Under the pieces are notes generated by a model that was not told where the DNA came from, searched no databases, and saw nothing but the letters and a program-made list of their open reading frames with translations. The translations under genes were made by a program, and so were the position numbers. A stretch of DNA of 45,009 nucleotides from NCBI GenBank assembly GCA_029821195.1, contig JALGTU010000005.1, forward strand, positions 1 to 45,009, in the 5' to 3' direction. The first letter of the stretch is position 1; the number at the start of each line of letters is the position of its first letter. Shown here one piece after another: positions 31,234-38,262 of the stretch. This DNA comes from Candidatus Zipacnadia bacterium (lineage in GTDB: Bacteria; Armatimonadota; Zipacnadia; Zipacnadales; Zipacnadaceae).

Positions 31234-32226
31234 CTAGTCTGGAGCTGTGATAGTCGCTCTCGGCAATTTGAACTGCTGGCGGAGCTGGTTTACATCTGCC
31301 TCAATCTGGGCCTTCAGGTCCTCCTCGGTCGCGAAGGCACGCTGGTCACGCACCCGGTCCAGAAAGTGGACCATCATCCCCGTGCTGGTGCGCGAGCCGT
31401 CCACCTCAATGTCGAGAAGGTGCACTTCTACCAGACGGGGGTCTCCGTGGGGAGCAAAGGTGGGCGAAGCGCCAATGCTGACTGCCGCCGGCCAGCCTGA
31501 GCGATATGTGGGCGTCGGCGGCTCAGGTAGACCGTCCGCTTCGACGACAGCCGAATATATCCCCGGACCCGGCACCAGCTTAGCCGGTGGCACGTGCAGA
31601 TTAATCGTGGGGAAACCCAGCTTCTGTCCGCGTCCGGTGCCCGACTGAACCAGGCCGTACAGGGGATAGGGTCGGCCCAGCAACCGGTTGGCCGGACGAA
31701 TATCTCCCGCCCACAGAAAGTTACGGATCGTACTACTCGAGACAACCTCGCCGTCTAGCGTCACCAGCGGCACCACGTGCACATCAAACCCATACTTGTC
31801 GCCCACCTCACGGATCCGATTGGCATCGGCCTCGGCCCCGTGGCCCCACGAGTGTGACTCGCTTATGACGACCGCCACCGCGCCCAGGCGCTCGACGACG
31901 TATTCCCGGGCGAACCGCTCTGCCGAGATCTTCCGGAGTGGCTCGTTGAACTCAGCAATGACGAGGGTCGCCACACCCAATTGCTCCAGGCCTCGCTCCC
32001 GGGCCAGCGTCAGTCGGACGTTGAAGCTGTCGTGCGGTCCGAAGACCTCCACGGGAGTCGGTTCGTAAGTCAGCGCGGTCAACTCCGCGCCATGTTCTCG
32101 CGCGGCGTGCAATGCCGCATCGAAGACCGCCCGATGGCCCAGGTGCATACCATCAAAGCCGCCATCAGCAACCACGCGCCGAACTGACTTCAACGCCGGA
32201 TTGTCCAACCCGCTGATTATCTCCAC
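31234..32226 (-). CDS. ribF: Bifunctional riboflavin kinase/FAD synthetase
   Basis: A 330-residue two-domain enzyme converting riboflavin to FMN and FAD. The FMN adenylyltransferase domain has the nucleotidyl-transferase motif GGFDGMHLGHRAVF (22-35) and SSSTIRNFLWAGDI. The C-terminal flavokinase domain has RPYPLYGLVQSGTGRGQKLGFPTINL and IGASPTF with the EVHLLD end. The usual DxRFG-type loop of the first domain is unusual here (ISESHSWGHGAEAD). Last gene of the rimP-nusA-infB operon, 39 bases after truB, converging on ccdA with 6 bases between the two stop codons. Confidence 0.93.
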   Translation of the reverse strand: MEIISGLDNPALKSVRRVVADGGFDGMHLGHRAVFDAALHAAREHGAELTALTYEPTPVEVFGPHDSFNVRLTLARERGLEQLGVATLVIAEFNEPLRKISAERFAREYVVERLGAVAVVISESHSWGHGAEADANRIREVGDKYGFDVHVVPLVTLDGEVVSSSTIRNFLWAGDIRPANRLLGRPYPLYGLVQSGTGRGQKLGFPTINLHVPPAKLVPGPGIYSAVVEADGLPEPPTPTYRSGWPAAVSIGASPTFAPHGDPRLVEVHLLDIEVDGSRTSTGMMVHFLDRVRDQRAFATEEDLKAQIEADVNQLRQQFKLPRATITAPD

Positions 32227-32265: not shown

Positions 32266-33168
32266 CTAAGCCCCGGCGAAGACTGTGCGAGGCTGAAGCT
32301 GCCATTGGCCCTGCTCAAGCCTGGTGGCCTCCGCAATACAGAGCAGCGCTCCATCTTCGGTCACCACGGCAACTAGACCGGCCTGCCCAGCGCCCTGCGG
32401 CACAGTCTGGGCATTACCGTAACTCAGCCACTGGGCGGTCACTGCATCCACAATTACTCTGGGCAGATGCGCCAGCATCTCCACCGGAGTGATAAGCAGA
32501 TCCTGCCGCGCTGGCCGGCCCGTCGTCCGGGCAAGCTCTTCCAAAGTACGCGCCTCTTCCAGCCGATGCGCGCCGACCTGCGTGCGTACCAGGAAAGACA
32601 GATAAGCGCCCGTGCCCAACTGCTCGCCCAGCACCTCCGCCAGGCTGCGGACATACGTCCCTTTGCTGCACTCGACCTCGGTCAACACGACCGGATACTT
32701 CCCGCCGGCAAACTCAACAAGCTCCCAGCGGTAGATTTCTACCGGGCGCGCGGGCAGATCAATCGCTTCGCCCCGCCGCGCACGTTTGTAGAGCCTGTCC
32801 CCACCCCGGCTCACCGCCGAATACGCCGGCACCACAATCTCCAGCGAACCAGTCAGTGCAGCCAGGGCTTCTCCTACCTGTTCCCCGGTCACGTGCCCCG
32901 CATCCTGGCAGGTGGTCAGTTCGCCCTCGGCGTCGGCTGTGGTAGTGCCGAGGCCCAGAGTTATCTCAGCGCGGTAGACCTTGTCACAGTCCACCAAATA
33001 CTGAGCCAGGCGAGTTGCCGACCCTATGCACAGCACCAACAGCCCGGCTGCGGCCGGGTCCAGTGTACCGGTGTGCCCCACCTTCACCCCCCACAACTCG
33101 CGCACGTATGCCACGACGTCGTGCGAGGTCATTCCCGGCGGCTTGATAACCAGCAGTCCACCGTGCAC
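32266..33168 (-). CDS. truB: tRNA pseudouridine55 synthase
   Basis: A 300-residue TruB that makes pseudouridine 55 in the T-loop of tRNAs. Motifs are GGLLVIKPPGMTSHDVV (4-20), VGHTGTLDPAAAGLLVL with the catalytic Asp, KVYRAEITLGLGTTTADAEG, and a C-terminal PUA-like region (MLAHLPRVIVDAVTAQWLSYG). It begins 6 bases after the rbfA::nrnA stop, indicating co-transcription. The rbfA-nrnA-truB-ribF order is the conserved one. Confidence 0.95.
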   Translation of the reverse strand: MHGGLLVIKPPGMTSHDVVAYVRELWGVKVGHTGTLDPAAAGLLVLCIGSATRLAQYLVDCDKVYRAEITLGLGTTTADAEGELTTCQDAGHVTGEQVGEALAALTGSLEIVVPAYSAVSRGGDRLYKRARRGEAIDLPARPVEIYRWELVEFAGGKYPVVLTEVECSKGTYVRSLAEVLGEQLGTGAYLSFLVRTQVGAHRLEEARTLEELARTTGRPARQDLLITPVEMLAHLPRVIVDAVTAQWLSYGNAQTVPQGAGQAGLVAVVTEDGALLCIAEATRLEQGQWQLQPRTVFAGA

Positions 33169-33174
33169 GGCTAC

Positions 33175-34536
33175 TCACCGCCCGTCGAGCGCGCGGGTGA
33201 TGGCCCTCAGGACCCTGGCCCGGACCTCGGGCAGCGAGCCGGTGATCGTGCAACCGGCCGCGGGCACGTGGCCGCCACCGCCGAACTGCTGGGCAATCGC
33301 GGCAACGTCTTTGGTCCCCGAGCGCAGGCTGACCCGCCAGTGGTTGTGACTGACCGCCTTGAACAAGACCTGGACCTCGCCGCCGGCGATGAGTTTGAGC
33401 AGGTCAATAATGGTGTTGGTATCCTCCTGACTAGCGCCGGCGGCAGCAAAGTCACCAGGCGTAAGCGCAGCGTGGACGATGCGGCCATTTGCGGCTGTCG
33501 CCACACTGGCCAGCGCTCGCCCGCGCAGCCGCGCCGCGGCCAGCCCGACTCGGCCCTGCGCCTGTGCAGCAATCCAATGAGAGTCGGCCCCGGCCCGGAC
33601 CAGTTCGCTGGCAACGGCCAGGGCCTCCGCCGAGGTGTTCTCAAAGGTGAAAAAGCCTGTATCCGTGGCCAGCCCGCAGTACAGGCAGGTAGCTATTGGT
33701 TGGTCTATCCGCGCCCCGAGGGCCTCAATTACCCGGTAGACCTGGAGCGCCGTCGCCGCCGCGCCGACATCCAGGTAGTCAATATCCCCGCCGCCCTGGT
33801 TGGTCCGATGGTGGTCTATCCATACGACCCTTCCCGCCCGGCCAAGCACATCGGCCAGTTCGCCGAGCTGGGAGTAATCACCGGCGTCCAGAATCACAGC
33901 CACTGCGAAGTCCTGCGGCACGGTGCCTGTTATCCGATTCGTTTCCGGCAGGAAGTGGTAACGAGCCGGGACCGGGTCGGAGCAGAGCACCGGCACGGAC
34001 TGCCCCAACTGCTCCAGGGCTAAACTCAGCGCCAGCCCGCTGCCCACAGCGTCGCCGTCCGGGTCACGATGGATAAGGATAACCGTAGGCTGCCCGGCCT
34101 TGAGCAGCTCGGCAATTCGGGCAATGGTCGCGCCGTAGTTACCGCCGGCAGAACCCTGGCCTCTTTCACCGGTTGCTATATCCTGCTCCGACTCCTCACG
34201 CTGGAACTGACCAATCAACGCTTCGATACGCTGGGCCTCACGGGCGGTTTCGTCCAGTTCAAAGATCAGTTCGGGGATGTACTTCAGGTGGACCCTCGCG
34301 CCCAACTGGCTGCGGAGCAGGCCGCGGGCGCGCACCAGCGCCGCCATAGTCTTGCGGACCTCGGTCTCGTCGCCCATGATGCTGGTGTAGACGTGGGCGC
34401 GGCGCAAATCGGGGGAGACCTCAACGCCGGTGATTGTAGTAAAGCCGATATCGGGGTCGCTGAGCTCAACCCGGATTATTTCGCTTATTTCCTGCTGGAG
34501 CAGGTGATTGACGCGATTTTGGCGGCGCGTAGCCAT
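33175..34536 (-). CDS. Fused RbfA ribosome-binding factor and NrnA-type DHH phosphoesterase
   Basis: One open frame of 453 residues. Residues 1 to about 115 are RbfA, the 30S maturation and cold-adaptation factor (RVNHLLQQEISEIIR, TITGVEVSPDLRRAHVY, LGARVHLKYIPELIFELDE). A Gly/Gln/Glu-rich linker (about 113-135) follows, then an NrnA-type DHH-DHHA1 phosphoesterase that degrades nanoRNA, pAp or c-di-AMP. It has H156-R-D158-P-D160-G-D162, ILDAGDYSQLG, the DHH triad at 241-243, GLATDTGFF and GGGGHVPAAGC. In most genomes these are two neighbouring genes. AAGG lies 8 bases before the ATG, and no internal ribosome-binding site and start pair is evident at the junction. Confidence 0.93.
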   Translation of the reverse strand: MATRRQNRVNHLLQQEISEIIRVELSDPDIGFTTITGVEVSPDLRRAHVYTSIMGDETEVRKTMAALVRARGLLRSQLGARVHLKYIPELIFELDETAREAQRIEALIGQFQREESEQDIATGERGQGSAGGNYGATIARIAELLKAGQPTVILIHRDPDGDAVGSGLALSLALEQLGQSVPVLCSDPVPARYHFLPETNRITGTVPQDFAVAVILDAGDYSQLGELADVLGRAGRVVWIDHHRTNQGGGDIDYLDVGAAATALQVYRVIEALGARIDQPIATCLYCGLATDTGFFTFENTSAEALAVASELVRAGADSHWIAAQAQGRVGLAAARLRGRALASVATAANGRIVHAALTPGDFAAAGASQEDTNTIIDLLKLIAGGEVQVLFKAVSHNHWRVSLRSGTKDVAAIAQQFGGGGHVPAAGCTITGSLPEVRARVLRAITRALDGR

Positions 34537-34555
34537 GCCAGAAACCTTCTTGCCT

Positions 34556-34843
34556 TCACAGAATCTCCACCGTCTCGGACTGGACGACTACGCGCGGTTC
34601 AGACTGTATGAACTCCGAGGCGGCCATTAGGACCCGATGCGTCTGTGCCGAGCTATTGCTGACGGTGACCGTCGCCAGCCATGCGCGGCGATGATGATCG
34701 TGACCCCCCACTTCGGCGGCTGAAACCTTCAGGCGCCCCTCCAGTCGCTGTACCAAGCTGCGCAGCACCTGCCGCTTCTCTTTGAGGGTATTGGCTTCTG
34801 GTATGGTCAGCTCGGTGGTCAGCAGGCCCACGAAGATAAGCAT
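34556..34843 (-). CDS. ylxP: YlxP/DUF503 family protein
   Basis: A 95-residue DUF503 protein, beginning MLIFVGLLTTELTIPEANTL and containing KEKRQVLRSLVQRLEGRLKVSAAEVGGHDHHRRAWLATVTVSNS. The family sits between infB and rbfA in many Gram-positive-type genomes and is of unknown function. Start ATG 34843 is chosen from the family N-terminus; a longer in-frame upstream reading overlaps infB and carries no homology. It lies 20 bases before the rbfA fusion gene. Confidence 0.9.
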   Translation of the reverse strand: MLIFVGLLTTELTIPEANTLKEKRQVLRSLVQRLEGRLKVSAAEVGGHDHHRRAWLATVTVSNSSAQTHRVLMAASEFIQSEPRVVVQSETVEIL

Positions 34844-34923: not shown

Positions 34924-36912
34924 CTACGGGGCCTCGTCGGGCAGTGTTGGCTGGATCTCGATCTGGGCGTATGCGTTTATGATATCGCCCACTTGCCAGT
35001 CGTTGAACTGCTCGGTAGCAACCCCACACTCCTGAGGCGCTTCGACCATCGCAACATCGTTCTGGAAGCGGCGCAGGGAGGTAAGCTCCCCGTCGAAGAT
35101 TTGCTTACCGTCGCGCGCAACCTCGATGCGCACGCCCCGCTGCAGGCGGCCACTATTCGTCCGGCAGCCGGCGATGACACCGACGCGAGAGATTCGGAAG
35201 ATTTCCAGGACCTCAGCCTCGCCGATAAGCTGCTCTTCGTAGATCGGCTCAAGCATGCCGGCCACGGCCAACCGGATGTCCTGGAGCGCTTCGTAGATAA
35301 CGTCGTAGGTTCGCACCTCCACATGCTCATCCTCAGCGACCCGTCGGGCACTATCGTCAGCCTCCACACGGAAGCCCAGCACAATCGCCTGGGAGGCAGC
35401 AGCCAGGAGGATATCAGACTCGGTGATCTCGCCGACGCTGCTATGAATGAGGTTAACGTCAATCTCTTCGATGAGCTCGTTGAGGCCGGCCAGACCGGAC
35501 TCCACAGCCTGCGCTGTGCCCCAAGCGTCCGACTTGAGCACGACATTGAGTTCCTTGGCTTTGCCCTCGCCGAGCTCCTGCTGGAGATGGCGCAGTTGCA
35601 CCTCTGCCTGGCCAACGAGTTGCCGCTCGCGCTCCGCTTCCTGGCGCTCGGTGGCCCGACGCCGCGCCTCCTTGGTGTTCTCGCACGCCTGCATAATCTC
35701 GCCAGCGTCGGCGACGTCGGACAGCCCCACGACCTCCACCGGATGGCCCGGCGCCATACTCTCGACCGACTGGCCACGCCAATCGCGCAATCTGCGCACC
35801 CGGCCCCACGAGCAACCGCATACGACGACATCACCGACCGATAGTGTCCCGTTGCGCACCAGCACAGTCGCCAGCGGCCCCTGACTGGGGTCCATACTCG
35901 ACTCGATGACGACGCCCACAAGCTCGGCGTCCGGATCCGCCCATAACTCCTGCACCTCGGCAACCAGCAGGATCATCTCGAGCAGTTCATCGAGACCCTC
36001 GTTTTGCGCAGCCGAAAGCGACACTATGATGGTATCGCCGCCCAACTCTTCCGGAACGACCTCGTGCTCCAGCAGCTCCTGTTTGACCCTCTCTTCGTCC
36101 GCGCCCGGCAGGTCAATCTTGCTTATGGCCACTACCATCGGGACTTCGGCAGCTCTGATATGGTCGAGGGCTTCCTCGGTCTGCGGCATAACGCCGTCAT
36201 CGGCAGCGATAACCAGCACCGCGACATCGGTAACCTGCGCCCCCCGGGCCCGCATGGCGGTGAAGGCCTGGTGCCCGGGTGTATCAATGAATACAATAGT
36301 CTTGTCGCCGATGCGAACCTCCGATGCTCCAATATGCTGGGTAATGCCGCCACTTTCCTCCGAGACCACGTCGGTGTCGCGCAGCGCGTCGAGCAAGGTT
36401 GTCTTGCCGTGGTCAACGTGCCCCAGAACAGTCACCACCGGGGGCACGTCAATAGCCGACTCGGGCCGCTCACCGCTGGGCCGCGCCGCGAGCTCCGCCA
36501 GCGGCTTGACTGCTTCCTTGCCCCGGCGCTCGGCCTCGGCCATCGCCTCGAGTTCGGCAATATGACGGTCCAGCTCCTCCAGACCCTCCAGCAGATCCGC
36601 ATCGTGCACCGGCGCCAGGAACTCTTCCTCTTCCCACTCCTCTTCTGCTTCGCCCGCCACCACTTGCTCTTCCGGCCGGGCTGCCTTATCACGCTCTTCT
36701 TGAGCCGTTGCCAGCTCAGCAGAGGCCTGGGCAGCCCGACGGGCCTGCTCGGCTTGCTCAGCAAGCAGCTCAGTGGCTGCCGTCGCCGTTTCCGAATCAA
36801 TGGCCGACGCTGGGCTGACATCGGCTACTCCCATCTCGGACAACACCGCAACGAGTGCTTCGCTGCGCAAGCCAAGTTTCTTTGCTAAAGAGAAGATGCG
36901 GATTTTCGCCAA
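34924..36912 (-). CDS. infB: Translation initiation factor IF-2
   Basis: A 662-residue IF-2, on the short side. The N-terminus has one IF2_N-like module ([26 protein letters not shown]), then an Ala/Glu-rich linker. The G domain has GHVDHGKT (164-171), DTPGH, and NKxD-type SKIDLPG in place of NKxD. Domains II to IV follow ([19 protein letters not shown] near the C-terminal third). The SKID form is a common IF-2 variant. It is preceded by nusA with a 78-base gap; the ylxR and L7Ae-like genes often found there are absent. Confidence 0.95.
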
Positions 36913-36990: not shown

Positions 36991-38262
36991 TTACTCATCA
37001 ACGCCGATAACTAACTCGCCGGCCTCCAGCTCCTCGAGCGTTCCGCTACCGCCAGCCAGCATGCTGCGCAACATACTCGCCTGCTCTCCCGTGATGTTGC
37101 TGGCATGGCTGGTAATTTCGACACCTTCGTCCTGGAGAATCTCAACTAGGTCGCGGCTCTCCACGTTTAGCTCCCGGGCCAACTCGTAGACACGCATCGT
37201 AGCGGGCGCGGCTGCGGCTTCTCGGGCCGCCTCTTCTTGCTCCTGCCACTGCGAGTGACTGCGAATATCAATCTTCCAGCCCGTGAGCTGAGCCGCCAGC
37301 CGGACGTTCTGCCCCCGCCGGCCAATGGCCAGGGAGAGCTGGCCGTCCGGGGCAATGATTACCGCCGCCCGTTCCTCCTCGTTGAGGATCACGCGATTGA
37401 CTCGCGCCGGAGACAATGCGTTCTTCAGGTATTCATTAATAGCTTCGTCATAGCGGACGATGTCAACCTTCTCGCCGCGCAGTTCATCTACTATCGCCTG
37501 TACCCGCCCACCCCGGTAGCCCACACACGCGCCCACCGGATCAACCTGCATATCATGGGACTGCACGGCCACCTTCGAACGGGCCCCCGGCTCGCGGGCG
37601 ACCGACATTACCTCCACAATGCCCTCGTAGACCTCGGGGACTTCCAGCTCAAAAAGCCGGGTAACTAGCATGGGATGTGTGCGCGATACGATAATCTGCG
37701 GATTCTTGGTGGTTCGGCGCACGTTGAGGATGTAGACCCTCACCCGGTCATTGAACCGGTACGGTTCGCCCGGGATCTGTTCATGGGAGGGCAGAATCGC
37801 CTCAGCATCGCCGATGGTAACGAATACGCTGCGGGCGTCACGCCGCTGGACTTCAGCGGTAACTACCTCCCCGACGCGCTGGACGAAGCGGTCGTAGGTG
37901 ATCTCGCGTTCCGCTTCCCGGATGCGCTGGATTACCACCTGCTTGGCAGTCTGCGCAGCAATACGCCCAAAATCCTCCGCATCAATTTCGCGTTCTACGT
38001 AAAGACCGGAAGACTGAATCTGCGCCAGGTCCATCTCTTCTTCCTCAGCCAGGGCGGTGTCGCTACTCAGTTCTTCGCGCAGGGCAAACAAGCGCACCTT
38101 TTTCTCCTTGGGATCAATCTTAATGCGCACATCCTCAGTGCCCCCGTACCGCTTACGGTACGCCGAGGTCATGGCTATCTCTACTGTTTGCAGCAAGGAG
38201 GACATGGGGATGTCCTTCTCCTTCTGCAATTGTTCGAGTGCATCGATCAGGTCGCCGTTCAA
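36991..38262 (-). CDS. nusA: Transcription factor NusA with C-terminal IF2_N-like module
   Basis: A 423-residue NusA. The N-terminal RNAP-binding domain (DALEQLQKEKDIPMSSLLQ), S1 domain (near 135-200) and two KH domains (VGACVGYRGGRVQAIVDELRGEKVDIV and LAIGRRGQNVRLAAQLTGWKIDI) are all present. After the KH domains comes a segment from residue 357, RVYELARELNVESRDLVEIL, continuing to DEGVEITSHASNITGEQ, which matches the IF2_N module normally seen at the start of IF-2. The C-terminus is acidic. It is 33 bases after rimP. Confidence 0.94.
   Translation of the reverse strand: MNGDLIDALEQLQKEKDIPMSSLLQTVEIAMTSAYRKRYGGTEDVRIKIDPKEKKVRLFALREELSSDTALAEEEEMDLAQIQSSGLYVEREIDAEDFGRIAAQTAKQVVIQRIREAEREITYDRFVQRVGEVVTAEVQRRDARSVFVTIGDAEAILPSHEQIPGEPYRFNDRVRVYILNVRRTTKNPQIIVSRTHPMLVTRLFELEVPEVYEGIVEVMSVAREPGARSKVAVQSHDMQVDPVGACVGYRGGRVQAIVDELRGEKVDIVRYDEAINEYLKNALSPARVNRVILNEEERAAVIIAPDGQLSLAIGRRGQNVRLAAQLTGWKIDIRSHSQWQEQEEAAREAAAAPATMRVYELARELNVESRDLVEILQDEGVEITSHASNITGEQASMLRSMLAGGSGTLEELEAGELVIGVDE

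Follow-up and report, generated by a model that had tools for sequence, protein, structure and literature searches.

A single-frame fusion of rbfA with a DHH/DHHA1 phosphoesterase gene in one genus of Candidatus Zipacnadia (Armatimonadota)

The window analysed here, the whole 45,009-nucleotide stretch of contig JALGTU010000005.1 from a Candidatus Zipacnadia bacterium, carries on its minus strand a fused rbfA-nrnA gene (33175..34536) that starts with ATG and encodes 453 amino acids followed by one stop codon. The first-pass annotation had described a single uninterrupted 453-codon frame without giving a strand, and this frame was confirmed on the minus strand. A Shine-Dalgarno-like AAGAAGG (34545..34551, minus strand), read from the sequence, lies 8 bases 5' of the ATG; it was present in the window's genome only, with a weaker version in the congeners. 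Upstream, the fused gene is preceded by genes for a DUF503 protein (34556..34843; PF04456, 91.5 bits), by infB, encoding IF2 (34924..36912), and by nusA (36991..38262); downstream, it is followed by truB (32266..33168) and by ribF, encoding a FAD synthetase/riboflavin kinase (31234..32226). All of these genes lie on the minus strand, giving the same-strand order nusA, infB, DUF503, fused gene, truB, ribF, and these surroundings are common to relatives. The NusA protein carries a C-terminal IF2_N domain (PF04760, 46.8 bits; residues 353-402), the same domain with which the adjacent infB product starts; this region of NusA was also aligned in G003, G006, G009 and G011 and is at least family-shared.

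The N-terminal part of the protein (residues 1-112; 34201..34536, minus strand) is a ribosome-binding factor A domain, putatively of the KH type. The Pfam profile RBFA (PF02033) was matched at residues 5-108 with 110.8 bits (curated cut-off 34.7) over profile positions 1-105 of 105, and TIGR00082 with 93.5 bits (cut-off 51.15). The C-terminal part (residues 137-453; 33178..34128, minus strand) is a DHH-DHHA1 phosphoesterase, in which DHH (PF01368) was matched at residues 152-288 (49.9 bits, curated cut-off 28.1; profile positions 3-124 of 125) and DHHA1 (PF02272) at residues 365-447 (42.9 bits, curated cut-off 25.9; positions 10-97 of 102). Since the profiles were covered nearly from end to end, both parts were regarded as essentially complete; the earlier description of a complete RbfA and a complete DHH phosphoesterase domain thus held, with all Pfam scores above the curated cut-offs. 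In an AlphaFold2 model based on 6 sequences, the RbfA part was predicted as helix-strand-strand-helix-helix-strand-helix, with pLDDT values of about 66-83 for residues 1-90 and a mean of only 58.7 for the whole model. The two parts are joined by a linker of about 20-25 residues (residues about 113-136; 34129..34200, minus strand), which was delimited by alignment and low model confidence. Residues 101-130 form the least certain region of the model (pLDDT 27-36), and the linker, which had been proposed to be flexible, is accordingly predicted to be disordered.

The motif residues of the phosphoesterase were named after the accessible text of PMC11229311 and PMC5593865. Motif I comprises H156, D160 and D162, motif II D217, motif III D241-H242-H243 and motif IV D292, and the GGGGH stretch lies at residues 419-423. 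The metal ligands H34, D38, D40, D95, H121 and D171, given for D. radiodurans RecJ-like protein in the part of PMC11229311 that was available, correspond to H156, D160, D162, D217, H242 and D292, as read off the structure-match alignment. Across motifs I-IV, the metal-ligand residues were invariant in the alignment of the five complete copies, as was the GGGH motif, and both domains are therefore probably active. The NCBIfam NrnA equivalog model NF053633 scored 95.8 bits and did not reach its cut-off of 350. In addition, the Bacillus-type R-x-R-x-R patch, located by counting back from the GGGH histidine, is incomplete (R401-V-S403-L-R405), with the middle arginine missing and R401 replaced by H in G006. 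Because of the unreached equivalog cut-off and the incomplete patch, the protein was classed among the DHH/DHHA1 phosphoesterases of NrnA/TmPDE type. The designation NrnA-type proposed at first is thus correct as far as the DHH/DHHA1 type is concerned and does not extend to an NrnA equivalog, the nearest structure being that of TmPDE.

Nonsynonymous distances (dN) were about 0.05-0.34 in each of the two domains, where synonymous change ranged from moderate to saturated, and the linker gave higher values (0.11-0.94); as synonymous change was saturated in many pairs, dN/dS ratios were withheld. With dN far below the synonymous distances, both domains are under purifying selection. No second RbfA was found in the window's genome, and the only other DHH locus there is a frame of 584 residues that is RecJ-like by size, which leaves the fusion as the sole copy found of each. 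The genome also contains a diadenylate cyclase locus, from which it follows that c-di-AMP is probably made. As it encodes a PgpH-like 7TM-HD protein too, the DHH arm is a possible but not a necessary candidate for the c-di-AMP phosphodiesterase.

The same stop-free fused frame was recovered from all six genomes of the genus in which the gene was found (Ca. Zipacnadia, Armatimonadota; uncultured sediment bacteria). A protein search of 61 genomes yielded complete frames in G000, G003, G004, G005 and G006; the copy in G002 is truncated by a contig end at residue 261 (its open frame measured 266 amino acids in the RbfA family search), with the junction covered. No match for the fused gene was found in G001, a member of the same genus that is 67% complete. 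The four complete congener copies share 61-71% protein identity with the window's fused protein. The linker sequence varies among the fused copies, and linker lengths differ by multiples of a codon, those of G004 and G006 being the shortest (14 alignment columns below the longest). As both domains remain in phase in all six genomes despite these length changes, the fusion was judged to be real. The class Ca. Zipacnadia of Armatimonadota was named in PMC10290634, where Meg19 and Meg22 denote Guaymas Basin cores.

A profile built from the fused proteins found a match in 283 of the 291 genomes of the phylum; among the matches listed, only those of the six congeners ran over both domains without a stop. 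In G014, G119, G118 and G061, the two domains were detected by the profile search in a common frame, but the matched stretch contained one or two stops. An RbfA family search of the same 291 genomes recovered RbfA in 188, and open frames of more than 400 amino acids were confined, among the matches listed, to the window's genus. In the group around G291 (Kiritimatiellae bacterium), 283 of 288 genomes carry RbfA, with no RbfA open frame longer than 284 amino acids among the matches listed. Two further candidates were rejected when their loci were read. The 546-amino-acid open frame of G049, which spans both pieces and had suggested a second, independent fusion, was discarded because rbfA ends with a TGA, 108 bases before the earliest possible start of nrnA in the same frame; G035 was likewise found not to be fused.

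In 103 of the 291 Armatimonadota genomes the search found no RbfA, though NrnA was present. Many of those listed belong to families f21 and f33, and some are single-contig or near-complete. In G189 (locus L049; not among the listed RbfA matches), nrnA adjoins truB, with no rbfA match and an unrelated gene upstream.

Each of the other eight members of the family (G007-G014) carries adjacent, separate rbfA and nrnA genes, and at every one of the 26 loci examined in separate-gene genomes (24 best matches and two chosen by hand) rbfA is immediately followed by nrnA on the same strand, in agreement with the initial statement that the genes are adjacent elsewhere. At these 26 loci, the beginning of the nrnA open frame ranges from 416 bases before the rbfA stop to 42 bases after it, and possible nrnA starts often overlap the end of rbfA. 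In G014, rbfA is followed by TAG, one codon and then the nrnA ATG in the same frame; this arrangement, found in a different genus and not ancestral, shows how few changes a fusion needs. Fused sequences formed one clade with support 100/99 both in the NrnA tree, where 5 of the 23 sequences are fused, and in the tree of RbfA, where 6 of the 24 are, the near relatives with separate genes including G011 and G013. A single, fully supported clade in each domain tree argues for one fusion event. These results define a single origin of the RbfA-DHH/DHHA1 combination and its boundary within the phylum (one genus).

Taken together, the locus is most probably explained by a genuine fusion of operon neighbours that is fixed in and specific to one genus, was inherited, and yields one chain in which both arms work as their separate relatives do. 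In the common ancestor of this Ca. Zipacnadia genus, the co-oriented neighbours rbfA and nrnA of a nusA-infB-DUF503-rbfA-nrnA-truB-ribF cluster would have been joined once, by stop loss and/or a small shift, and the join kept. Because the genes are co-oriented, near-overlapping operon neighbours, which in four genomes are in-frame save for stops, joining them would be an easy step that requires no functional reason. One chain would be translated from the rbfA start; its RbfA arm would aid 30S maturation, and the DHH/DHHA1 arm, carried on a flexible linker, would hydrolyse short oligonucleotides and/or pApA, c-di-AMP or pAp. The main effect would be not a new activity but production of the two arms at a fixed 1:1 ratio, and possibly placement of the phosphoesterase on pre-30S particles; the fusion would in this way tether the enzyme to a ribosome-assembly factor.

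The first-pass annotation had further taken the fusion to support a functional tie between the two activities, a claim that was not sustained, as the fusion reflects one event in one genus between genes that were already operon neighbours. Selection of the fusion because 30S maturation and the turnover of short nucleotides or c-di-AMP gain from being joined in one chain, for example by placement of the phosphoesterase at the pre-30S particle, is considered unlikely. It would fit the persistence of the fusion while the genus diversified until the proteins shared only 61-71% identity, and the probable synthesis of c-di-AMP suggested by the diadenylate cyclase. It would also fit one cryo-EM structure described in the accessible text of PMC9032327, in which the RbfA C-terminus, the attachment point of the phosphoesterase, points to the 5' end of 16S rRNA; the position of RbfA differs, however, between the two structures given there. 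Against selection for such coupling also stand the single event in one genus, with relatives retaining separate genes, the variable length and sequence of the linker, and the PgpH-like 7TM-HD protein, owing to which the fusion need not be the sole c-di-AMP phosphodiesterase. If the coupling were functional, 30S assembly would be linked to dinucleotide turnover. A genus-level fusion of operon neighbours is, however, weak evidence of a functional tie, and co-expressed neighbours can fuse with little consequence.

It is very unlikely that the single frame still gives rise to separate RbfA and NrnA proteins by internal initiation, frameshifting or proteolysis of the linker. Between RbfA and the DHH motif, in-frame TTG codons are present in four of the six fused genomes, and the very low model confidence of the linker is typical of disordered stretches. 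These TTG codons share no common position, however; in-frame ATG or GTG codons were found in this interval in none of the six genomes, G005 and G006 contain no in-frame start codon of any kind there, and a search of the linker for a slippery heptamer found none. Judged from these sequence features, translation probably begins at the start codon of rbfA and gives a single chain; post-translational cleavage of the linker would yield two proteins.

A more specific role of the fused protein at the 5' end of 16S rRNA is extremely improbable. A DHH exonuclease would here be kept on the pre-30S particle near this end, where the rRNA leader or pieces of it would be its substrate as RbfA-dependent 5' maturation proceeds; the lineage has no recognisable RNase J. 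Such a tethered nuclease is conceivable because the RbfA C-terminus faces the 16S 5' end in the one structure mentioned above. Among the 15 genomes of the family, none contained an RNase J over the family cut-off and all contained an RNase E/G over the cut-off. With no RNase J over the cut-off in the family, the DHH arm could have additional roles; this background is not peculiar to the fusion, since relatives with separate genes share it.

The probability that a missed stop or a frameshift in assembly or sequencing merely joined two separate genes is close to nil: every sequence comes from a draft assembly, metagenome-derived (MAG) in the case of those with names, and base-shuffled linkers are stop-free by chance in 27% to 52% of cases per genome, but the same join occurs in six congeners, the window's genome included, whose named MAGs fall into two series (CSMAG and Meg), with linker lengths varying by whole codons. 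An error of this kind at the junction had been named at the outset as a possible refutation, and recurrence of the fused frame in five further genomes of the genus led to its rejection. The per-genome chances do not multiply, because the six genomes are related, and a stop-free linker alone is weak evidence for a fusion.

As a fixed fusion of operon neighbours, the gene unites two known families, RbfA and DHH/DHHA1 phosphoesterase, in a domain combination that is new. To our knowledge, no RbfA-DHH fusion has been described. In the open-licence literature, no description of RbfA joined to NrnA or to a DHH protein was found; the accessible text of PMC4014445 uses both names, RbfA and NrnA, and tells of no fusion between them.

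The closest comparison is provided by the separate rbfA and nrnA neighbours of other Armatimonadota, which belong to the same families and share gene order, strand and the infB-DUF503 and truB-ribF surroundings, but differ by their separate frames, those of G014, G119, G118 and G061 being in-frame with intervening stops. The best solved-structure match to the DHH/DHHA1 part (5.8e-44; residues 138-446) is TmPDE of Thermotoga (TM1595; PDB 5o1u), a phosphodiesterase that stands alone and lacks an RbfA domain. The fusion shares DHH motifs I-IV and, in DHHA1, the GGGH motif with Bacillus NrnA and Mycobacterium Rv2837c (5j21, 5jju) and with the D. radiodurans RecJ-like protein (8ioo), none of which has an RbfA domain; of the Bacillus-type R-x-R-x-R patch, the fused protein has only a part. 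At the other end, the PDB chains 8bxa, 6ye5 and 7afl match residues 1-119, with 8bxa and 6ye5 as the nearest solved structures. Two of these, 8bxa and 7afl, which we take to be the RbfA proteins of S. aureus and E. coli, were aligned with the RbfA domain of the fusion over 112-115 residues; these chains end at 116-133 residues, whereas the C-terminus of RbfA in the fused protein runs on into the phosphoesterase.
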